In this document: piece by piece, positions 9,596 through 62,419 of the stretch
How the letters are laid out: every line of letters begins with the position of its first letter
Numbering within the stretch: the first letter of the stretch is position 1
The notes under the pieces: generated by a model
The model's database searches: none
The model's input: only the letters and a program-made list of their open reading frames with translations
Told to the model about the DNA's origin: nothing
Translations under genes and position numbers: made by a program
Assembly (NCBI GenBank): GCA_002368155.1
Contig: AP018180.1
Span: forward strand, 7,620,561 to 7,684,560
Reading direction: 5' to 3'
From: Nostoc carneum NIES-2107
GTDB lineage: Bacteria; Cyanobacteriota; Cyanobacteriia; Cyanobacteriales; Nostocaceae
Length of the DNA: 64,000 nt

Positions 9596-12500
9596 TTAAG
9601 AGGCGTTTACAGGCAACTTGATAATAAATTCTGTGCCTTCTCCGAGAACAGAATCTACAGTGATTGTACCTTCGTGTCGTTCTATGACAATTTGGCGGGC
9701 GATCGCTAATCCTAAACCTGTGCCTTTACCAACGGGTTTGGTAGTAAATAGGTGATCAAAGACTTTGGCTTTGACTTCTGGTGTCATTCCTGTACCGTTG
9801 TCTTTGATGCGAATTACAACATGGGGAGTAGAGTTACTATCACTCTGGGGAATATATGCAGTTTTAATGGTGATTTGGTGGGAATGGGGGCGAAATTCAC
9901 CTTGGACGCGTTGCTGGTTAAATTCTTCTAAACTATCAATGGCATTTGCCAAAATGTTCATAAACACTTGGTTGAGTTGTCCAGGGAAACATTCGACTTC
10001 GGGTAAATTGCCGTAATTTGTGATTACTTCAATTGCGGGACGGCTTTCGTTAGCTTTGAGGCGATGTTTAAGAATTAAAATTGTACTGTTGAGACCTTCG
10101 TGAAGATGAAAGGGAATTTTGTAATCTTTATCGGCGCGAGAAAAGTTTCGCAAGCTAATACTAATACTGCGGATGCGATCGACACCAAGTTTCATGGAGT
10201 CAATCAGCTTGGGTAAGTCTTCACGTATATATTCCAAATCAATGGCTTCTATTTCCTCGGTAATGACTGCACCAGGATTGGGAAATTGCTGCTGATACAA
10301 ATCGAGTATTCCTAACACATCGTTAATATAATCTCGCGCAGGTTGCAAGTTACCGACGATAAACCCTACAGGATTATTAATTTCATGAGCAACACCCGCT
10401 ATCAGGTTCCCCAAGGCAGACATTTTCTCACTTTGCACCATTTGTAGTTGGGTTTGTTGCAAATCTTGCAAGGCTGTTTCTAATTCTTGAGCTTTTTGCT
10501 GCGCTTGGGCTTCAGCTAGTTTGCGAGCGCTAATATTAATTGCTGTGCCAATTAATTGATGGATTCTTCCAGTGCGATCGCGCAGGGGATTAAAGGTTGT
10601 CAGCCACCAAGTTAGCTCTTGATCAAAGGTAAGACTCTGTTCAATGGTGATGCTAGTTCCTGCGTTAATGCAACTGATAAATTGTTGTCTCACCGCAGCA
10701 CCTTCTACTTCTCCATGAATCTCTTCGGGAGTTTTGCCGATCACTTCCTCTGGTAATACACCTGCAACCCTGGCGGCGGCTGGGTTCCAACTAGCATAGA
10801 GAACATCTTGCTCTGGTGTGACATTGATGACAAAAATCGGATGATCGACACCATCGTAGATACTGCGGAGAAATTGTTCTTGGGCGCGGATTTTTTCTTC
10901 CGCTAAATGGCGATCGCTAACATCGATCACAATCCCATCCCACATAATTGATCCGTCGGCTTGCTGCTGGGGTTGCGCCACAGATTGAATCCATTTGACA
11001 ATGCCGGAAGGTGTGATAATACGCCATTCATGTTGAAATGACGTTAAATTTTGAGCAGAATGAGTTATTAATTCAGCAACATTTGCTATATCATCAGGAT
11101 GATTAATTTTATACAGGTTTTCTTTACCTGACATCACATCTTCCGCTGACACCTCATAGATTTCGTAGCAGCCAGAACTGACGTAGGGTGTAGATGTAGA
11201 ACCATCAGTAGCTAAATGAAACTGGTAAATCATCCCTGGGATGTTATTTGCAAGGTTCTGGAAGCGGGTATCACTTGCTTTGAGTTCGTCAAGGGATTGC
11301 TCTAACTGCTGGCTGTACAGTTGAGCTTGTTGATAAAGGTGGGCATTTTCTAAGGAAATCGCCGCTTGAGTACAAAGCAAATTTAGAAGTTCCACGCGAT
11401 CGCTAGTAAAGGCTGCTGTGGCTTCTTTATTTTCTAAATACAAAATCCCTAAAAGTTTGCCCTGATACATAATTGGCGTACATAATATGCTCTTGGGCTG
11501 GTAACGGAAAATATAGGGATCGGCTGTTAATAAGGGATGGGTGATGGCATCAATTAATACCGCGGCTGTCAAGGTTCTTTTGACAGTATTAATCAAGCCT
11601 ATGGGTACTTCTTGACTGTTTTCTAGGGGAACTGATTGCAGGACTGCTGATTGTTGTCCCAATGCAATCGTCGCTTCAATAGTTAGCTTGCCCTGTTTTT
11701 GTAGTAATAAAACACATTTATCTGCTCCAGCATTTTCTAAGACTACTTGCAACAAAGTAGAGAGTAATTTGTTCAGATGAATTTCGCTAGCTAACATCTG
11801 AAAAGATTTGAGGACAGTTGCTAAATCCAAGGCAGCAGATACGCTATTGCTACTATAATTTGTATTTTGACTGTCATTGGAATGAGTTACCATTTCTGCT
11901 AATGGAATCGTGACATCAGATGAAAAACTGATGCTATCTGGTTGCAAAATGGGAATCAGAAAATGCGGATAGTTTTGTTCTAGTTGCTTAACTTTGGCAG
12001 TTGCACCCCAACGCGCATAACCATAGTAAGCGCTTAATAAATATTCTTGAACAATATTATTTTTGCCCCATGCTAAATAGAATTTGGCAGCAAGTTCGTT
12101 AGCTAAGGCTTCTTCGTGGGGGTAATTATTAACTTTGGCTGTGGAAATTGCCAAATCATATAATTCAATAGCTGCGGCTTTGTTATGTAAAACGCGCTGG
12201 TGTTCTGCTTCCACTAAATAAAATTTATGCAGATGATTTCCTGGGGCAGAATTAGCCCATTTCTGCACTTTTGCTTGGTTGCTATTAACTCGCTGTTCAA
12301 TGCGTTTTTGTTCGGCTGAAGAAACTTGCGGATAAATTGCCAGATGTGCCAGGGAATCGTAGGTATAAAAGCTAGGAACGATAAATAATCCGGTAGCTGC
12401 ACCCAAGTAATTTTCTGTGGCGATCGCAGCGTTTACGGCTGATGGAAACTCCTCAGATAAATAATACAGAAAAAGTTTTTGGTAATGGAAATAGCACAGG

Positions 12501-15500
12501 GCTGTTTGATCGCCTCCCTGTTCCAGGATTGGTAACATTTGGGCTTCATGAAAAGCATCGCCCTCAAATCGCCAAACCTCAGTATTATCTCCTAATAAAT
12601 TGACAACGGTTTGCTGAAAAATGGCAATTTGATTGACTAGTGCTGCTTGCTGGAGTTGAGTTAACTGGGTACAAAAAGCAGTAGCATCGCGGTTGATATC
12701 GTTCAACTCTTGACCTGCTAGCCAAGAATGCATAATGTAAATAATGCCGCAAATACTAGTCCACACTAAATCGCCAGTTTCTAAGCCACTTTGATAGCCT
12801 GCTTTTAACAATGGTAAGCTGTTGATTACAGGTTCTTGCCAATGTAATGTACCCAGGCAAACTTCTCCATAGGTTCTAGCTGTTTGTTCTTTAATATGAG
12901 AGTTTTCGAGTAACTTCAGTGCTAGTTTGCCAAATTGATAGCCCAAGTCAATATCTCCTTGAACTCCACATAATAACTGTCCATAACAGCCATAACTATA
13001 AGGAGAAAATGGTGTATTCCCGTAGGTAATTGATAAGTTAACTTGTTCTAAAATAATTAACGGAAATAATTGCGGCACTGCAATATAAGTAGAAGAAGAA
13101 ACAGCCGCCATAATTTTGATTGCGGCTAATTTTTCTGGTTCTGTCATTTGGGGCAGATTGACTAAGTCTAATGGTTGTCTCCCTGCTAAATTTTTTTTAG
13201 TTTGATGCAGTGCTTGCGTAATATCTAATTCACTAGGTTGTTCTGGAAAATTGATACCCAAAAGTTGCAGAATTTTCAGAGCAATTTTTACGGCTGCTAA
13301 GGGTTGATTTTGTGCTTGTAGTACTTGAATTTGAATTTCATAGGCTTTTATCTTATCTAATAAACTGTTAGCACTTGCTAAAATCACATCAGCTAAATTG
13401 GTCATTTGCTCTAAGTCACTACTTAGATATGCTGCTTCAGTAGCTGCTGTATACAGTGCTAAAGTTAATTCATACTGGGTTTGCCATTGATTTTTAGGCA
13501 ATAAGTTAATGCCTGTAGTGAAATATTCTAAAGCTACTGTATGGGCAGTGGCAGTTCTCGCTTTTTTGCCAGCTTTTAAGTTAAGTTGAGCTAGTTGGGT
13601 ATAGTGAATATCTTCCCCAATCCAATTTTTACCAATATTAAATTGGTTAACAATCTCAAATAATTTTTCCTCTTGTTCTGCAACAGTAGTTTTATGCAGT
13701 AGTAGTTTACCAATGTGGAAGTGAGTCAGTTGTTTTTGGGGTTCGGGAATTAGAGAATAAGCTGCTTGCTGGACGCGATCGTGCAAAAATTTGTAATGGG
13801 CTAAGGGATTACCACTGATGGGTAATGGACATGATGCGTTTTGGCAATCACAGTTTTGGAAAAATTTATAAACTTCATTAGTAGGTAAAATTAATCCTGC
13901 TTGCAGTGCTTGCCATAAATCTGCGGCTGTTTCTGACTCAGATTTTTCGTAAACAATTGCCAGAGTGGATAAATCAAAATCATTACCAATGCAAGCAGCC
14001 AGTTTTAAAACTGTTTGGGTAGCGGTGGGTAATTTCTGAATCTGCTGTGCCATAAATTCAACAACATCATCAGTCAAGGCTGATTCTCTAATTTCGGCGA
14101 TATTACCTTGCCAGCAACCAGTATTGATATTAAAGTTAATCAATTTATCTACATATAATGCCTTGAGAAATTGTTTAACAAAAAAAGGATTTCCTTTGGT
14201 TTTTTGGTAAACTAACTCCGCTAGAGGTTTAGCAATTCCATCTGGACAACTGAGGGTATCAGCAAGCAAATGATTTAAATCACATAATTGCAAGGGTGAC
14301 AAGGTAATGGTGTTAACAATTGCTGGAGAGTTGTGAATTTCATCTAATACCAACATTAGGGGATGAGCAGTTGATACTTCGTTATTGCGGTAAGCACCAA
14401 TTAATAGCAGATAACCTGTTTCTGCTTCGCCTATTAACAATCGCATCAGTCTGAGCGATGCTGAGTCTGCCCATTGCAAATCATCTAAGAAAATGACTAA
14501 GGGATGGTTGGGAGTAGTAAAAACTCTAATAAACTTTTGAAACAGCAAATTGAAGCGAACTTGGGCTGCATCGAAAGCAAGTTCTATAGGTGAAGTTTGC
14601 TTGCCAATAATTCTTTCTAGTTCTGGGATCACCTCAATAATTATCTGTGCATTATCTCCCAATGCTGCCAGAATTTTCGTTTGCCATTGCTCTAGTTGGC
14701 TATCTGTTTCTGTCAGTAATTGTGCCATTAAATTACGTAATGCTTGCACAAATCCCGAAAAGGGAATATTTCGCTGGAACTGATCAAATTTACCTTTAAT
14801 GAAATAACCCCGTTGTCTGACAATTGGCTTATGGACTTCATTGACGATCGCAGTTTTGCCAATACCCGACAAACCTGCAACTAACATCAGTTCGCTTCTA
14901 GCGTTGGTTTTGTGGGCTACCCGCTCAAATGCATCTAGCAGCTGTTGAATTTCCGCTTCCCTACCATAGAGTTTTTCCGGAATGAGAAAGCGATCGCACA
15001 CATCCCGGTTACCAATGGTAAAGTCTACAATCTTACCCGTTGTTTGCAGTTGTTCTAAGCAATTTTGTAAATCAAATTTTAATCCTAAAGCACTCTGATA
15101 GCGGTCTTCGGGGTTTTTCGCCATCAGCTTACTCACAATATCGTAAAGTACCTGCGGTCTTCCTTCCCTTTCCCTGTTCCCCGTTCCCCGTTCCCCGTTC
15201 CCCAATACCGCAGGTATTTTCGCAATATGACAGTGAATTAACTCCATTGGGTCATCAGACTGAAACGGAAGTTTACCTGTCAGCAGTTCAAACAAAGTAA
15301 TTCCCAAAGAATAGAAATCACTGCGATAGTCAATCCCTCGATTCATCCGTCCAGTTTGCTCTGGAGAAATATAATTGAGGGTTCCTTCTAAAACATTGGG
15401 ATTTTTAATTTCCTGAGTTTCTCTTGGGAGCAAAGAGGCAATACTAAAATCAATCAGCTTGACTTCTTGAGTTTGAGGATTGATCAAAATATTGTCAGGT

Positions 15501-15910
15501 TTGAGGTCTTTATGAATAACTCGATGCTGATGTAAATTATGTAAAATCTCCACGATTTGCAGTGCGATCGCTAAAAATTCACTTAATTCTAGTGGCTCTT
15601 GTTTGGTATAATCCTGTAGCGGAATGCCACCAAAATCTTCCATTACTAATATATAGCTATTGCGATATGCTTCCAGGGTGTAGTGGCGTACTACACCCTG
15701 GAAGTCAAGATTTTTGGCGATTGTATATTGGTTGCGAAACTGCAACAGTTCGTGAAAACTTGGATAATCAGATTTGAGGTATTTGATGATTACAGGCTGC
15801 TGATTGCTAACTCGAATACCGCGATAAACAATTGTCCTGGAACTAAAGTGCAGTTGTTCTACCACCCGATATCCTAAAATTCTGCATTCTAAATCCAGCC
15901 CTGCAATCAT
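9596..15910 (-). CDS. Giant hybrid serine/threonine kinase - AAA ATPase - GAF/PAS - histidine kinase (HstK-type)
   Basis: A 2104-residue signalling protein with two kinase activities. Residues about 12-290 are a Ser/Thr kinase (HKDLKPDN catalytic loop, IDFSIAS in place of DFG, SPEQTGRMNR activation segment). About 315-640 is an AAA-type predicted ATPase (Walker A GLSGIGKT), followed by roughly 650 residues of helical TPR-like sequence. Then come a GAF domain (about 1350-1510), two PAS/PAC units and a HisKA/HATPase pair (H-box [14 protein letters not shown]-box [18 protein letters not shown]). This order is that of HstK-like proteins of Anabaena. The ligand and targets are unknown. A heptad repeat has been inserted in frame within the Ser/Thr kinase domain (15168-15210) and a perfect 15-bp hairpin lies at 15670-15704. 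It is divergent from the WD40 STAND gene. Confidence 0.93.
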   Translation of the reverse strand: MIAGLDLECRILGYRVVEQLHFSSRTIVYRGIRVSNQQPVIIKYLKSDYPSFHELLQFRNQYTIAKNLDFQGVVRHYTLEAYRNSYILVMEDFGGIPLQDYTKQEPLELSEFLAIALQIVEILHNLHQHRVIHKDLKPDNILINPQTQEVKLIDFSIASLLPRETQEIKNPNVLEGTLNYISPEQTGRMNRGIDYRSDFYSLGITLFELLTGKLPFQSDDPMELIHCHIAKIPAVLGNGERGTGNREREGRPQVLYDIVSKLMAKNPEDRYQSALGLKFDLQNCLEQLQTTGKIVDFTIGNRDVCDRFLIPEKLYGREAEIQQLLDAFERVAHKTNARSELMLVAGLSGIGKTAIVNEVHKPIVRQRGYFIKGKFDQFQRNIPFSGFVQALRNLMAQLLTETDSQLEQWQTKILAALGDNAQIIIEVIPELERIIGKQTSPIELAFDAAQVRFNLLFQKFIRVFTTPNHPLVIFLDDLQWADSASLRLMRLLIGEAETGYLLLIGAYRNNEVSTAHPLMLVLDEIHNSPAIVNTITLSPLQLCDLNHLLADTLSCPDGIAKPLAELVYQKTKGNPFFVKQFLKALYVDKLINFNINTGCWQGNIAEIRESALTDDVVEFMAQQIQKLPTATQTVLKLAACIGNDFDLSTLAIVYEKSESETAADLWQALQAGLILPTNEVYKFFQNCDCQNASCPLPISGNPLAHYKFLHDRVQQAAYSLIPEPQKQLTHFHIGKLLLHKTTVAEQEEKLFEIVNQFNIGKNWIGEDIHYTQLAQLNLKAGKKARTATAHTVALEYFTTGINLLPKNQWQTQYELTLALYTAATEAAYLSSDLEQMTNLADVILASANSLLDKIKAYEIQIQVLQAQNQPLAAVKIALKILQLLGINFPEQPSELDITQALHQTKKNLAGRQPLDLVNLPQMTEPEKLAAIKIMAAVSSSTYIAVPQLFPLIILEQVNLSITYGNTPFSPYSYGCYGQLLCGVQGDIDLGYQFGKLALKLLENSHIKEQTARTYGEVCLGTLHWQEPVINSLPLLKAGYQSGLETGDLVWTSICGIIYIMHSWLAGQELNDINRDATAFCTQLTQLQQAALVNQIAIFQQTVVNLLGDNTEVWRFEGDAFHEAQMLPILEQGGDQTALCYFHYQKLFLYYLSEEFPSAVNAAIATENYLGAATGLFIVPSFYTYDSLAHLAIYPQVSSAEQKRIEQRVNSNQAKVQKWANSAPGNHLHKFYLVEAEHQRVLHNKAAAIELYDLAISTAKVNNYPHEEALANELAAKFYLAWGKNNIVQEYLLSAYYGYARWGATAKVKQLEQNYPHFLIPILQPDSISFSSDVTIPLAEMVTHSNDSQNTNYSSNSVSAALDLATVLKSFQMLASEIHLNKLLSTLLQVVLENAGADKCVLLLQKQGKLTIEATIALGQQSAVLQSVPLENSQEVPIGLINTVKRTLTAAVLIDAITHPLLTADPYIFRYQPKSILCTPIMYQGKLLGILYLENKEATAAFTSDRVELLNLLCTQAAISLENAHLYQQAQLYSQQLEQSLDELKASDTRFQNLANNIPGMIYQFHLATDGSTSTPYVSSGCYEIYEVSAEDVMSGKENLYKINHPDDIANVAELITHSAQNLTSFQHEWRIITPSGIVKWIQSVAQPQQQADGSIMWDGIVIDVSDRHLAEEKIRAQEQFLRSIYDGVDHPIFVINVTPEQDVLYASWNPAAARVAGVLPEEVIGKTPEEIHGEVEGAAVRQQFISCINAGTSITIEQSLTFDQELTWWLTTFNPLRDRTGRIHQLIGTAINISARKLAEAQAQQKAQELETALQDLQQTQLQMVQSEKMSALGNLIAGVAHEINNPVGFIVGNLQPARDYINDVLGILDLYQQQFPNPGAVITEEIEAIDLEYIREDLPKLIDSMKLGVDRIRSISISLRNFSRADKDYKIPFHLHEGLNSTILILKHRLKANESRPAIEVITNYGNLPEVECFPGQLNQVFMNILANAIDSLEEFNQQRVQGEFRPHSHQITIKTAYIPQSDSNSTPHVVIRIKDNGTGMTPEVKAKVFDHLFTTKPVGKGTGLGLAIARQIVIERHEGTITVDSVLGEGTEFIIKLPVNAS
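15168..15210. repeat. STRR units (GTTCCCC) inside the coding sequence of the giant kinase
   Basis: Three to four GTTCCCC/CTTTCCC heptads lie in frame in the Ser/Thr kinase C-lobe and encode the low-complexity segment GNGERGTGNREREG between CHIAKIPAV and PQVLYDIVSKLMAKN. Confidence 0.8.
15670..15704. repeat. Perfect 15-bp inverted repeat within coding sequence
   Basis: CTTCCAGGGTGTAGT and ACTACACCCTGGAAG flank a 5-nt GGCGT loop. It encodes part of the kinase N-lobe (about residues 70-81, DFQGVVRHYTLE), whose length looks normal for the family, so the hairpin does not appear to be an insertion. Confidence 0.85.
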
Positions 15911-45148: not shown

Positions 45149-47824
45149 TTAAGCTACTAAAAACGAAGGATTAATACGGCGGGATTTAGATTTTTTGAGT
45201 AATCCCGTGGTGTCTTCTGCTGATAGAGGGCGACTAAAGAGATAGCCTTGCATGAGTTCGCAATCTAGTAGTCGTAATAAGTTGCGTTGTTCTTCTGTTT
45301 CTACACCTTCAGCAACAACTGCAAGCTTTAACCCATGTGCTAAAGCAATAATTGCAGTTGTGATGGCAGCATCATGATTATCATCAGATAAATCTCTGAC
45401 AAAAGACCTATCAATTTTTAAGCAATGGATCGGAAAATTTTTCAGATAACTGAGAGAACAATACCCTGTACCAAAATCGTCCATAGAAATAGAAACACCT
45501 AAAGAGTGTAATTCACTTAAAATTCTTTTAGTGAAATCAACATTTTTCATGGCAATACTTTCGGTAATTTCTAGCTCTAAACATTTATGGTTTAATTGCG
45601 TTTCTGACAATATTTGCTGCACCATGTTTACTAAGTTTGGTTGCTGAAATTGGCGTGCAGAAAGATTCACAGCCACTGAAAGTGAGGGTAAATTAAGTGC
45701 ATCTTGCCAAGCTTTATTTTGAGCGCAAGCAGTTCTTAACACCCATTCTCCAATTGGGAGAATTAACCCAGTTTCTTCAGCCAGGGGAATAAACTTTTGG
45801 GGTGGAATTAAGCCTAATTCTAAGTGTCGCCAACGTAGTAATGCTTCTATTTTGGTAATTTCACCTGTAGTAATATTCACCTGTGGTTGATAGTAAACTT
45901 CAAATTCTTGGCGTTCTAAGGCCGAGTGCAAGCTATTTTCTAAAGTCAACAACTCTGAAGACCCAGAATTGATGGCTGAGTTATAGAACTGATAATGATT
46001 CCGTCCTTGAGACTTAACGCGATATAGCGCTATATCGGCGTGTTTAATCAAAGTTTCCGCATCTTGTCCATGCATGGGATAAAGGGCAATACCAATACTG
46101 ACGCTGATATGTAATTGGTATTTTTCAATTTCAAATACTGGTTTAAAAGCTGCTAAGATGCGTTCTACAATCTGGGTAACTTCTTGATTATCGTTAATTT
46201 CTGGCAAAATTAGGGTAAATTCATCGCCTCCCCACCTTGCTATGGTGTCAATCTCTCGCAAACATTCGATCAGACGTTGAGCCACAATTTGCAATAATTG
46301 ATCGCCAATGGCATGACTTAATGTATCGTTGATGACCTTGAAGCGATCTAAGTCTAAAAAACACACTGCTAGTTTGCTACGATGTTTCTGCGCTTGTGCT
46401 AAAGCTTCTGAAAGTCGCTCATTAAATAGTACGCGGTTAGGTAAATCCGTTAACAGGTCGTGTAAAGCTTGATGACGGATTTTGGCTTCTGCTAATTTAT
46501 GGGCTGTAATGTCGCGAAAACTCCAGACTCTACCGACGATTTTGCCATTAATGCGCTGAGGTTGGGAATAACGCTCTAAGACTCTGCCATCTTTAAAAGC
46601 GATCGCATCATAAAGCTGTGTATCTGGATTAAAGTATAATTCTCTAATCGTAGCAAAATACTGTTTTGGCGCTTCTAGCTGTTTCATCGCCAATTTCAGC
46701 ACTTCTTTGTAATTTCCGGAGGTGATTAATGACTCCGGAATGCGCCACATTTGCAGAAACTTTTGATTAAAGCCTGCAATCTTACCTTGATTATCTACCA
46801 CTAAGATGCCGTCGGCAGTAGATTCTAAGGTCGCCCATTGCAAAGACAGTGATTTCTCTAGTTCTTTTTGTATCCGCTTGCGCTCCGCAATTTCTCTGTG
46901 CAACTCGGCTGTGCGTTCTTGTACTACGTTTTCTAACTGATAAGCAGAATCTTGGGTTTCTAGAATTACTGTTTTGAGGGCATGATCTGCTAGGAAGCGA
47001 TCATGTACTAGGGAAAGTACACCTGCTACCGCTTGCAAAAATGCTGTTTCTTTGGCTTCCCAAATCTGTGCTTCTTTGCAGTTATCAAATCCAATAAATC
47101 CAACAAAATTACCTTGAGCAATGATTGGTAAAATCAATATTGTCAAAACATCCTCTAGACCTAAAGCCTGAGTTTCTGTTTTGCTTAATTCTGTGATTGT
47201 CTCAGCAACGATATCACCACGTGCTAATAACTTTAACCAGCGTGGGCAGAATTTTGTATAAGATAGCTTGTGCCAAGGGTGGTTTTCAATTTTGGATGGG
47301 ATACCTTCAGCGCACCATTCAGCTTGCAGATGCATGATTAAGTCGCCATCATCATCAACATAATTTTCAAATATGTATACACGACTAACCTGACAAGCTT
47401 GTCCCAAAGTTTGCAGAATTTCTGTATAACATCTGAGTCGATTATCGAAATTCAGCAGCAATTGTTCAATGGAAGCAAGTGCTTCTAGATAATAAGTGCC
47501 ACAACTAGAAGCCAATGCTTTTACAGACTGACTCAATTGATTAGCTTCATCACTTTTGGCTGCTGATAATTGGTTTTTTATGAGGAATAAATCAGGATTT
47601 TCCTGCTGATTTAAGGCGATTTCTTGGGTATTTGTTCCTAAAACTTTGACAGAAGAAGTTTTTCCGAGATTTTCAACTTTTAGTGAACGATAATTTGACC
47701 TATATAAGGCAATTATTCTGACTCCTAAGTAGATGCATAAACCAACCATCAAGACAAGCATAGTAGTTTCTGTTATGGTAGATGGCGCATTTTTAGCTTG
47801 TAGTAATACCCTGGGAATTTGCAT
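45149..47824 (-). CDS. Cyclic-di-GMP signalling protein: membrane helix - GAF - PAS - GGDEF - EAL
   Basis: An 891-residue protein from the ATG at 47824 (a TTG two codons upstream is less likely). One membrane helix near the N-terminus ([19 protein letters not shown]) is followed by a GAF domain (about 120-290), a PAS/PAC unit (about 325-450), a GGDEF domain with the intact active site RWGGDEF and an EAL domain with intact [23 protein letters not shown] and [10 protein letters not shown]. Both halves could therefore be active: cyclic-di-GMP synthesis and breakdown in one protein, with net direction set by GAF/PAS signals. The GAF lacks the Cys-His of bilin-binding domains. It is a monocistronic gene. 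Confidence 0.93.
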
Positions 47825-48922
47825 AATCAATAACCTGATTTAATATATAACCAATCAGCATGATTTTTATTTCTAAGTATTTTAATTTATTTTTATGTTG
47901 ATATTTTACGTACTTAGATGTGCTGTAACATTTAGATTTCTGTAATTACCAATATTTTTAGTAAAAGTCATAATTTCTTGACTTTAGAGATATTTAGCTA
48001 AATATCTCTAAAGTTAGGTATATAGATATTAATAACTATGACAAACATCTCCATTAATTATTGGGACATTACTTAACAGAGATACGAGCCTAAATTTCAC
48101 AGATAAAACAACACTTAAAGATTGAGTATCATGTCTAATTTAGATATTTTAGACTCTCCGCGTCATAGCGAATCACATTAAAAAACATACTGTAACCAGT
48201 ATGTATTTGTGAATAATCAAATATTATATGATTCTCCGCAAATTGCATAGTTATACCAGAAATTAACTATTATAGAAATTTACATATAGTGAATCTTTTA
48301 TATTAAATCTCCGTTTTTTTAATCTTATAAACTTAATATTAAATTAATGTTTACTTTTATTAATAAAAGTTTAACAATCATTTAAAAACCCAATTTTTCT
48401 AGCACTCTAAGAGTTTTAATTGAAATTTTAGAGGTTCATCTGAAGATAAAACTCTTGATCAATAGGTTGTTATTGAAATATCTAACAATTAAGGTTTATC
48501 TCAATTGAATATTAGGAGTATAAATAATTAAAGACTACAAATACTCATGAGATAAAATTTTTCTATATAGTATAAAAACAGACAAATCTATAGGACAATT
48601 TAGACATGGCCTCTGTTTAAGAAGGAACAGAGAAGAATTTTATAGTGAGTATCCTTTGGGGCATAGGGCATGGGGCATGGGAAAGACCGATTTTTATGCT
48701 TGGTTGTGAAAATGGGCATGAGGGATGCGCTGTCTTTGCAACGCACTACCTCCCTCATATCCTATTGCTGATGACCAAAAGCGCCGAGCCGTGGGTAGAG
48801 TTTTTCATTGGGATTGCTTCCTTAGCAATGCCTATTTCCCCAACAGTCGTCATGAACTGCGTACACCAGCACCCATGAAAATCTCTCTTTCTAGTCAACC
48901 GTCAACCGTCAACACTATTTAC
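47825..48922. other. Long AT-rich intergenic region
   Basis: About 1.1 kb without a convincing gene. It is strongly AT-rich up to about 48600, has a perfect hairpin at 48185-48204 (ACATACTG / CAGTATGT) and GGGGCAT-type heptads near 48658-48680. Two short frames at 48645-48931 overlap the heptads and are not accepted. Confidence 0.5.
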
Positions 48923-58463: not shown

Positions 58464-61265
58464 TCATGAATTGTTTAAGTTATAAAAAACAGGTTTAATT
58501 TCCCATCTTTCACAGTTGAGTTTTATAGAATTGGCGCTATGATTGTTAACTTTGCATAGGGGATTAAGAGGTAACTCTATCCACAACTCTGTACCTTTAC
58601 CTGCTTCTGAGACACACTCTATGATGCCACCATGCTTTTCTACAATAATTTGGTAGCTGATAGCGAGTCCTAAACCTGTACCTTTGCCCACAGGCTTAGT
58701 TGTGAAAAATGGGTCAAAAATACGCTTTTTCACTTCTTCTGTCATGCCTGTACCATTATCGGCAATCCGAATCAAGATAAAGGATTTATCTGCAGAAACT
58801 CTCGTGGAAATACAAATTGAGGGTATGAGAGATTGATCGCGTTTAATTTGTGTTTCTAAAGCATCAATAGCATTAGTGACAAGATTCATGAATACCTGAT
58901 TCATTTGTCCGGCATAACATTTCACTAATGGTAAATCGCCATAGTCTTTCATCAACTTCACGCCAGGAAAATTGGTATTAGATTTAAGGCGATGTTGCAA
59001 AATTAATAAAGTGTTGTCAATTCCTTCGTGTAAGTCAACAGGCTTAAATTCCGCTTCATCTAAACGAGAGAAATTGCGTAAAGACAGCACTATTGAGTAG
59101 ATTCTTTCCGCCCCTACTTGCATAGAGGAGATAATTTTGGGCAAATCCTCTGCCACAAACCCAACATCAATAGTTTTTTCTGCTAAACGAATTTCACTAT
59201 CTGGTTCGGGATAATGCGATTGATAGAGTTGTAAAAGCTGTAGTAATTGTTGGGTGTAGTCATTGGCGTAAGTCAGGTTACCGTAAATAAAATTAACAGG
59301 GTTGTTAATTTCATGGGCTACCCCTGCAACTAACTGTCCCAAACTGGACATTTTTTCGGTTTGAATCAATTGTGTTTGTGTATGTTGCAGTTCTTGTAGA
59401 GTCCGCTCTAACTGTTCTGCTTTAGCTTTAGCCTGATTTTCAGCAGCATGGCTTTGTTCGTAGAGTTGTGCTTGCTGAATTGCGATCGCGGCCTGATCTG
59501 CTAGTTGTAGGATTAACTGAATTTCTGCATCTTGCCAATTTCGGGGTGCATTACATTGATGAGCAATGAGTAAACCCCATAGTTGTGTACCCATTTTGAT
59601 GGGAATAATTAAGTTGGCTTGTACTTGCAGATTCTCCAAGAACTCGCGATGACAATCACTCAAGCCAGCAGTGGAAACATCATTAATTGCCCGTACTCTT
59701 CCCTGATTGTAAAGACGAGCATACTCATCAGGAAAACATTCTTGAGGGGCTGTGGTTCCCAAAGCTGATGGATAGTTACCATGAATCTCTTCTACAATCA
59801 CATAACCATCAGACTCACTGAATATTTTGTAAATTAACGCCCGATCGGAATTGAGTAGCGATCGCACTTCCCTGACAATGGTTTGGAGGGTGATATTTAA
59901 ATCTAATGAACTGCGTATTTGCTCGGTGATTTGCTTGATGATTTTGGTAAAATGCAGGGATTTCTTGATTTCAGCAGTTTGTTCTTTTACCCGCTGCTCT
60001 AAGTTACTATTGAGGCCTTGCACTTCTTGATACATTTGCTGCTGGTGAATAGCCATCGAGAAGTGATAAGACAAGGCTTGTCCGAGACAGATATCTTCTG
60101 GTTTCCATTCTGGCGCTTGTCCTTTCCTTTCTTCTCGCCAAACCTCAAAGGACAGTTGGGGTAGTTGCTGTCGCTGATTTTGCTCGCAGCGTCCCGCCCA
60201 CAAGATTTCGGTATCAAATTCTGGGCGAAAAATGGTTAACACACCAATAAAATTTTGGCGGTAATGTAGAGGAATTACCAATAATCCGCGAATTGGAGTT
60301 GCTTTGAAGGCTAAGGCTAAAACTCGGAAATTGGGTTCTTTATAAAGGTCGGAAATTGCCCAAACCTGGCTGGGTTTGGATTGAGCTATCCAGTTTTGCC
60401 ATACGGGATGCTGCTCAATAACACTATTTTCTAACTCGTAAGGTAATTTTGGTTGTTCGCCCCAAGTGTAAAGTTCTCCACTCTGTTCGATGTAAATCCT
60501 ACCACCGATACCAGCAAAAGCATTAATAGTTGCCTTGAGAGCCTGTGGCAATTGAATTGTCGGTAGTTGATGCAACAGGATACTGATTTGGTTAATAATG
60601 CCTTCTTGTTGTTGCTGAAAACGGGTTTCACTGAGTAGATTGCTTTGAGCGATCGCAATTTCTACTTGATCGGTAACCTGTTGTATGACTTTCAGTTCCG
60701 ACTCGGAAACAGTTCGGGGTTGGCTGTGGTGCGATACCAACAATCCCCACAGTTCTGGCTTTGCTGATTTCTCTGTGAGATTGCGATGTAATATTGGCAC
60801 TACCAGCGAAGCCTGTACGCCCATAGCAGTTAAGTACTGAATATGGCATGGGTCTACCTGTCGATAGTAGATATCCTCGGTTTGTTGGTATGGGTCGCTA
60901 GTTGATAAATATAGGGGCGATAAGCCGACTTGTCCTGTAGATACATCCACAATAGCCCGTTGCCGCAAGGCTATAAACATCTCTCTGGCGTACCGTGGGA
61001 TATCATTGGCAGGGAAGTGTAGTCCTAAAAGAGATGGTAAACGCTGTTCGTGGATAGTTTCAGCAATCACTTCGCCACTTTCATCCGCATCAAACCGATA
61101 GACCATTACCCGGTCTGTACCTAAAAATGACCGCACCTCGGCAACGGTAGCTGTTAATATGTCTGGAAGTTCAAGCGATCGCCTAATTTGATTAGTCATT
61201 CGGTGCAGTAAACTTTCTGGGTCAAAGGTTTGCTGCAACCCACCAGTTTTTTTAGTAAATACCAT
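58464..61265 (-). CDS. Phytochrome/cyanobacteriochrome-like sensor histidine kinase: GAF - PHY-like - GAF - HisKA - HATPase
   Basis: A 933-residue kinase. The first GAF (about 15-210) is phytochrome-like: FPANDIP (85-90) in place of PASDIP, and DPCHIQYL with Cys140-His141 at the bilin attachment site. No PAS or knot domain precedes it, as in Cph2-type proteins. Residues 217-410 look like a PHY domain: ILWAG and LSFEVWREE stand for the tongue WGG and PRxSF motifs. The second GAF (about 440-600) resembles cyanobacteriochromes: [10 protein letters not shown] with Cys538-His539, and QECF (Cys510) where the DXCF second cysteine would be. A coiled coil, H-box [10 protein letters not shown] (His651) and an intact ATPase ([15 protein letters not shown]) follow. 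Photosensing is inferred and bilin binding is unproven. No response regulator is adjacent. Confidence 0.9.
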
Positions 61266-61758: not shown

Positions 61759-62238
61759 TTACAGGTATTTTTCGGTAAGTGCGGTCATAGAGACTAACTT
61801 GCGGATTTCTTCACGTACGCTCATGAGAACTTTACCAAGTTGGTTTTCACCAGTTTTATTTTTCCCACAACCCCAAAAGTAATCGTTAGGTGAATCCTCT
61901 ACTATGATTTCATTCCCCGTGTTTAACAGTATGTCTCGAATCTCAGTATGAGTAAGAAACTTTTTCAATACAGCTTCTCGCATTACCTGAGTTTTCACAA
62001 TATCCCAATCACAACGGAGTTGGCGACTACTACATCGCCCTAAAGCAGCAGCTTCTTCTGGGGTTGGGGCATTATGGATCGCGGGTATAATTACCGCATC
62101 AATACTGCCAACAAACTTTTGTGCTTGATAATAATGCTCAACAGTTGCCCAGTAAGTACCCTGGATTTGAATTCCATGCGGAGAAAAGTTAGAAAAACAG
62201 CCATAAGGCTGCCAAACCTTGTAAAAGTAAATAGTCAT
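61759..62238 (-). CDS. NADAR-domain protein (YbiA-like)
   Basis: A 159-residue NADAR protein from the ATG at 62238; a TTG 24 bp upstream is weaker. Motifs are FYKVWQPYGCFSNFSPHGI, WATVEHYYQAQKF and the C-terminal PNDYFWGCGKNKTGENQLGK, the standard family segments. NADAR proteins cleave N-glycosidic bonds, for example in riboflavin intermediates or ADP-ribosylated molecules, and some are found beside anti-phage or NAD-related genes. No such neighbour is seen here. Confidence 0.93.
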   Translation of the reverse strand: MTIYFYKVWQPYGCFSNFSPHGIQIQGTYWATVEHYYQAQKFVGSIDAVIIPAIHNAPTPEEAAALGRCSSRQLRCDWDIVKTQVMREAVLKKFLTHTEIRDILLNTGNEIIVEDSPNDYFWGCGKNKTGENQLGKVLMSVREEIRKLVSMTALTEKYL

Positions 62239-62419
62239 TTGAAAATTGCTCTTGAATATCAATTTATATCATGCCTGGAGATGGTAATTAGAGTCTGCAA
62301 AAACTCCCTAACAGGAAATTTTCTACTTTCAAATCAACGCTAGCATTTGCCTCTAGATAGAAGATATTCCTGTGGTGAAAGTTCTAAGGTAGTAAAAATG
62401 CTAATCTACGAGGTTGAGC

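Follow-up and report, generated by a model that had tools for sequence, protein, structure and literature searches.

A predicted two-photosensor histidine kinase of Nostoc carneum NIES-2107 and its ATPase-less paralogue

Introduction

Within the 64,000-nucleotide stretch of Nostoc carneum NIES-2107 DNA analysed here (the window), a minus-strand open reading frame with an ATG start (58464..61265) codes for a protein of 933 residues. An earlier note on this DNA saw in it two separate bilin-type GAF domains joined to a histidine kinase and proposed that a single kinase could combine red/far-red with blue/green-type inputs. The layout itself is already known: All2699 from Nostoc sp. PCC 7120 is described in PMC6696110 as a PAS-less GAF1-GAF2(PHY-like)-GAF3-histidine kinase, the same GAF-PHY-GAF-histidine kinase chain as the window kinase, in which g1 (638/685 nm) and g3 (645/595 nm) each bind phycocyanobilin (PCB). 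Likewise, Cph2 from Synechocystis holds a red/far-red module and a blue/green sensor within one protein (PMC5812497). These accounts rule out the novelty both of the architecture and of the two-input combination. The difference lies in GAF3.

Domain organization

Pfam recognizes three GAF stretches in the protein, a PHY domain (E = 8.1e-9, residues 291–409, matching the second half of the model) and a HATPase_c domain (E = 4.4e-23, residues 787–901), with no PAS family up to E = 1. HisKA, at residues 642–669, scores 22.9 bits and so stays under its cut-off of 26.9, yet the H-box AHEINNP, which includes His651, can be recognized. With this histidine and the N, G1 and G2 boxes, all of the histidine kinase hallmarks are present, in agreement with the kinase output proposed earlier. 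On the minus strand, the complete GAF1-PHY-GAF3-HisKA-HATPase order assigned from the reading frame and Pfam ends in a dimerization and phosphoacceptor region (residues 636–750, 59016..59360, with His651 at 59313–59315; placed by the sub-cut-off HisKA match and the boxes) and the ATPase domain with its three boxes (58563..58907).

A family alignment was built from 93 distinct sequences out of 109, counting in the window protein and a paralogue from the same genome (L002). The kinase boxes are kept in 91 of the 93, the exceptions being L002, which is a short paralogue, and L076, which is cut by a contig end. Cys140 is present in 90 sequences, Cys538 in 91 and Cys510 in 85, a conservation that makes these cysteines more than chance occurrences. 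Eight sequences lack Cys510; seven of these carry another type of GAF3 and one (L062) is a single exception. The remaining comparisons use the 86 of the 93 sequences with a GAF3 of the window type, again including the window and L002. Taken together, the sequence matches and the predicted folds show a chain composed of a PAS-less GAF-PHY module of the SyB-Cph1, All2699 and Cph2 kind, a cyanobacteriochrome (CBCR)-type GAF, a helical region with the predicted phosphoacceptor histidine and an ATPase domain.

The phytochrome module

GAF1 (residues 17–211, 60633..61217, from Pfam, phmmer and a residue check) is of the phytochrome type and has no preceding PAS domain. Residues 17–432 align end to end with the solved GAF-PHY fragment of SyB-Cph1 (PDB code 8w26; phmmer, E = 1.4e-81), and the PHY domain (residues 225–420, 60006..60593) is supported by Pfam, by this alignment and by the predicted fold. 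An AlphaFold2 model of GAF-PHY, computed from an alignment of the window with 34 of 78 loci, has a mean pLDDT of 79.6. Its best match in the PDB is again 8w26 (TM score of 0.77 by query and 0.86 by target length), with the likeness to SyB-Cph1 applying to the GAF-PHY fragment only. The second-best match is Cph2 (PDB code 4bwi; 0.65 and 0.73, chain B), another protein with a PAS-less GAF-PHY and a CBCR in one chain (PMC5812497). The PAS-less GAF-PHY module proposed earlier is thus borne out. The PANDIP motif with Asp88 and the Cys140–His141 pair (60843..60848) were also found where they had been placed, so that PAS-less GAF-PHY, Cys-His and DIP (D88-I-P), three marks of the knotless Group II phytochromes, are there. 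By alignment, Cys140 is the expected site of bilin attachment and is conserved in 84 of the 86 window-type sequences.

The PHY tongue (residues 354–379, 60129..60206) was located by alignment, running from ILWAG (354–358), with Trp356, to LSFEVWREE (371–379); model confidence is low over residues 354–371 (pLDDT below 50). The P-x-x-SF frame is retained, but PRxSF reads PQLSF. Glutamine is the commonest residue at the arginine position (57 of the 86, against 20 with Arg and five with Lys). SyB-Cph1 (PLISF) likewise lacks the arginine, and its authors consider that the loss may loosen the tongue (PMC11264168). In All2699 this arginine bridges to the Asp of DIP (PMC6696110), and the All2699-type sequences, unlike the window kinase, keep it (7/7). 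GAF1 would bind PCB at Cys140 and switch between red- and far-red-absorbing states, with the tongue and the long helices relaying its state towards the kinase.

The second photosensory GAF domain

GAF3 (residues 431–606, 59448..59975) was assigned to the CBCR type from Pfam, sequence matches, Foldseek and the tree. That it is a second, separate CBCR-type GAF, as the earlier note held, is upheld by its best sequence matches, which are solved CBCR chains, and by the tree; Cys538–His539 (59649..59654) aligns with the canonical cysteine and is the expected bilin attachment site. The closest solved relatives by sequence are RcaE, a dual-sensor kinase and TePixJ. The green/red RcaE comes ahead of the blue/green TePixJ, and sequence does not reveal a spectrum; the earlier 'blue/green' label is not supported.

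Structural comparison is less discriminating. The GAF3 model has a mean pLDDT of 85.2, with lower values in the loop carrying Cys510 (blocks of 72 and 62). In a Foldseek search the first rank went to the dual-sensor histidine kinase (PDB codes 6ob8/6oap). The phytochrome SyB-Cph1 came seventh, its query TM score (0.79) being the highest among the rows near the top; RcaE was tenth, and TePixJ took ranks 11 and 12. RcaE and TePixJ are therefore among the matches, but, with both kinds ranked near the top, fold alone fails to separate a CBCR from a phytochrome GAF.

The QECF motif (residues 508–511, 59733..59744) was placed by alignment at the DXCF second-cysteine position, as had been proposed. 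This is half right. Cys510 aligns without gaps with the second cysteine of TePixJ, 28 residues ahead of the canonical one; it is present in 85 of the 86 window-type GAF3s, and the TePixJ spacing recurs in 85 of 85. The aspartate of DXCF, however, is missing from all 86, with Gln at this position in the window protein where TePixJ has Asp. Elsewhere in the motif Phe511 is found in 81 sequences and Glu509 in 56. Among 17 more distant members Cys510 occurs in 16, Cys538 in all 17 and the aspartate in three. For comparison, 36 other CBCR-like GAFs of the same genome were examined, from 33 chosen loci out of 61 matches; 25 have a cysteine in the 510 column, and 23 of these 25 have the aspartate. 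In GAF3, the cysteine has thus been retained while the aspartate has been lost.

What Cys510 does can be read in two ways. A two-cysteine photocycle is plausible from the alignment: Cys510 could bind the bilin reversibly as a second attachment point, which would create a short-wavelength state in GAF3 and allow the kinase to compare red/far-red with a second colour, a reading to which we give slightly less than an even chance. Alternatively, GAF3 may be a one-cysteine sensor in which Cys510 shapes the pocket or aids bilin isomerization, with green/red, red/orange or green/teal colours; this too falls a little short of evenly balanced. The absence of the aspartate in 86 of 86 sequences favours the one-cysteine sensor, as does the best solved match, since RcaE is a one-cysteine green/red sensor reading QEVFPQEY where GAF3 reads QECFPDEY. 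Glu509 falls on a glutamate of RcaE, the Glu of its protochromic Glu-Leu-Lys triad. Against it, the RcaE residues Val, Leu and Lys are replaced by Cys510, His539 and Asn551, so that the other two positions of the triad differ; Cys510 is retained at fixed spacing in 85 of 86 sequences and in 16 of 17 distant members; and RcaE is not the sister of GAF3 in the larger of the two trees described below. AM1_6305g1 provides a precedent for the one-cysteine reading, as it isomerizes PCB to phycoviolobilin with its second cysteine dispensable (PMC11284453).

A further alternative, that one of the bilin sites is dead and the second GAF merely structural in a single-input sensor, seems improbable. Cysteines have indeed been lost in single sequences (both Cys510 and Cys538 in L062, Cys538 in L040), but Cys140 and Cys538 are each present in 84 of 86, and both g1 and g3 of All2699 bind PCB (PMC6696110). 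Three bilin reductases and four haem oxygenases above cut-offs in the N. carneum genome could supply the bilin, and were counted in favour of its binding. The RcaE-like sequence of another GAF in this genome (L190, G000:C1:1735117–1735695) is a separate matter: over 144 columns it shares 99% identity with the sequence of the RcaE structure, and two neighbouring bilin reductase genes (1727351–1728851) lie 7 kb away, which suggests a role in chromatic acclimation.

Phylogeny of GAF3 and relationship to All2699

Two trees of GAF domains were calculated. The first (65 rows, rooted on two phytochrome GAFs, with three weak GAF stretches of the same genome left out) placed GAF3 as the earliest CBCR branch, the remaining CBCRs grouping at 96/63. 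This gave rise to the notion that GAF3 is an early, basal lineage born beside the phytochrome GAF within the same chain. In the second tree (91 rows), which has 15 outgroup GAFs and 17 of the 28 distant loci, and omits the three weak stretches, four close clade rows and seven GAF1 rows, that placement disappears: the base becomes an unresolved fan and GAF3 joins a DTCF GAF of its own genome at 83/94, its deeper placement being weakly resolved. A basal origin is accordingly very improbable. A sister relationship to RcaE was not recovered either. Structure 6bhn corresponds to NpR6012g4.

The window GAF3 type forms one group in the 91-row tree (27 rows, 100/97; 28 rows with L241, 91/95), apart from the extended red/green (XRG) GAFs, RcaE and TePixJ. 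In keeping with this, it lacks the XRG motif WXDXXL as defined in PMC11284453. The GAF3s of All2699 type, on the other hand, fall inside the XRG clade (100/99). All2699 was placed through its residues: all 13 of those to which PMC6696110 gives numbers are matched by L087, against seven in the next best sequence and four in the best window-type sequence. L087 carries the XRG motif (WNDTYL), and the GAF3s of its group have no cysteine in the 510 column, where the window type has Cys510. Proteins of the L087 group are 48–49% identical to the window protein, and another locus of the N. carneum genome (L004) also carries All2699-type GAFs. By this residue fit, All2699 is most likely a member of a paralogous group that shares the layout but has another colour sensor, and the tree and motifs set the window GAF3 apart as a separate lineage, unlike the XRG-type GAF3 of that group.

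Distribution and gene neighbourhood

Matches at E ≤ 1e-150 occur in 43 of 60 family genomes, own included, with window-type and All2699-type proteins pooled. Of 244 genomes sampled across the phylum, own included, 28 gave a GAF3 match at E ≤ 1e-52, with scoring confined to the 13 best candidates of each genome. In 27 of the 28 distant loci that were read, GAF1, PHY, GAF3 and the kinase are present, with one extra GAF in L229; L241 has the GAFs and the kinase, with no PHY detected.

A NADAR gene (61759–62262, minus strand) lies upstream and ends 493 bases before the kinase start; of 73 sources, made up of the window and 72 loci, 61 have it clustered with the kinase. In 50 of the 73, but not in the window, an unnamed protein comes next. 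No dedicated response regulator was recognized next to the kinase by eye in the 18 largest neighbour clusters of the 73 sources, the domain search covering the window. Elsewhere in the window are a 2104-residue protein in which protein kinase, AAA, GAF, PAS and HATPase domains are combined (9596–15910, minus strand) and a GAF-PAS-GGDEF-EAL protein (45149–47830, minus strand).

The protein is thus probably, with good though not high confidence, an orphan two-photosensor histidine kinase of the All2699 layout in which GAF1 and GAF3 both switch. GAF3 would bind a bilin at Cys538 and switch independently and, because it directly precedes the kinase, may gate or override the phytochrome signal.

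An ATPase-less paralogue

The second copy in the same genome, L002 (G000:C1, 1501–3753, minus strand), codes for 750 residues, in which Pfam finds GAF and PHY and neither HisKA nor HATPase. Its helical region can still be aligned and has Gln at the position of His651. When 217 family genomes were searched with a threshold of E ≤ 1e-300, which could miss weaker copies, 11 proved to carry short paralogues (frames of 752–780 residues); the other 13 matches have frames above 900 residues. The short forms (L002, L133 and L163–L172) come from the window's own genus g1 (eight), g29 (two) and g3 (one); the list of genomes lacking a match is incomplete, so that full coverage of g1 is not implied. All 11 retain alignable dimerization helices and the equivalents of Cys140, Cys510 and Cys538, eight have Gln and three His at the 651 position, and an intact long kinase co-occurs in each of the 11 genomes.

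In a 51-row tree the short paralogues form one clade (100/99), whose sister (100/99) is L183 of genome G005, a full-length frame that keeps the histidine and has broken N, G1 and G2 boxes. L183 is an apparent intermediate towards ATPase loss. No second window-type kinase was found in G005 at E ≤ 1e-100; this speaks against an obligate pair, with the reservation that the genome is 95% complete. The dN/dS ratios of the short paralogue, obtained by a simple counting method, range from 0.030 to 0.157 over 27 comparisons (nine pairs, three regions, the helical region included), with uncertain values in the several comparisons where dS exceeds 1. Such purifying selection rejects a plain pseudogene, and from these sequences we infer a functional light-sensing pseudokinase, possibly a partner of the intact kinase.

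A fuller scenario, rather unlikely as a whole, is that of a light-tuned pair: a duplicate with both sensors, all three cysteines and the helices lost its ATP motifs, as seen in L183, then the ATPase domain, and in most cases exchanged His for Gln. Through its helices it would pair with the intact kinase and, depending on two colours, silence it or be phosphorylated by it, the kinase:pseudokinase ratio setting the colour response; in parallel, GAF3 would represent a two-cysteine sensor lineage devoid of the Asp. No description of an ATPase-less paralogue of this kind was recognized in the open-licence literature, as judged by titles and the beginnings of abstracts.

Conclusions

What is new here is the sensor combination, a non-XRG GAF3 on a known chain, together with the ATPase-less paralogue; the architecture itself is known. 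If this interpretation is correct, evolution has mounted two different colour sensors on a single red/far-red kinase chassis: an XRG domain in proteins of the All2699 type and a domain of the Asp-less lineage in those of the window type. Such a natural swap would reveal at which joints an exchange is tolerated. That Cys510 is conserved in the absence of the aspartate raises the question of the role of Asp in two-cysteine chemistry. On the same interpretation, the ATPase-less paralogue would be a naturally occurring photoreceptor pseudokinase in bacteria.
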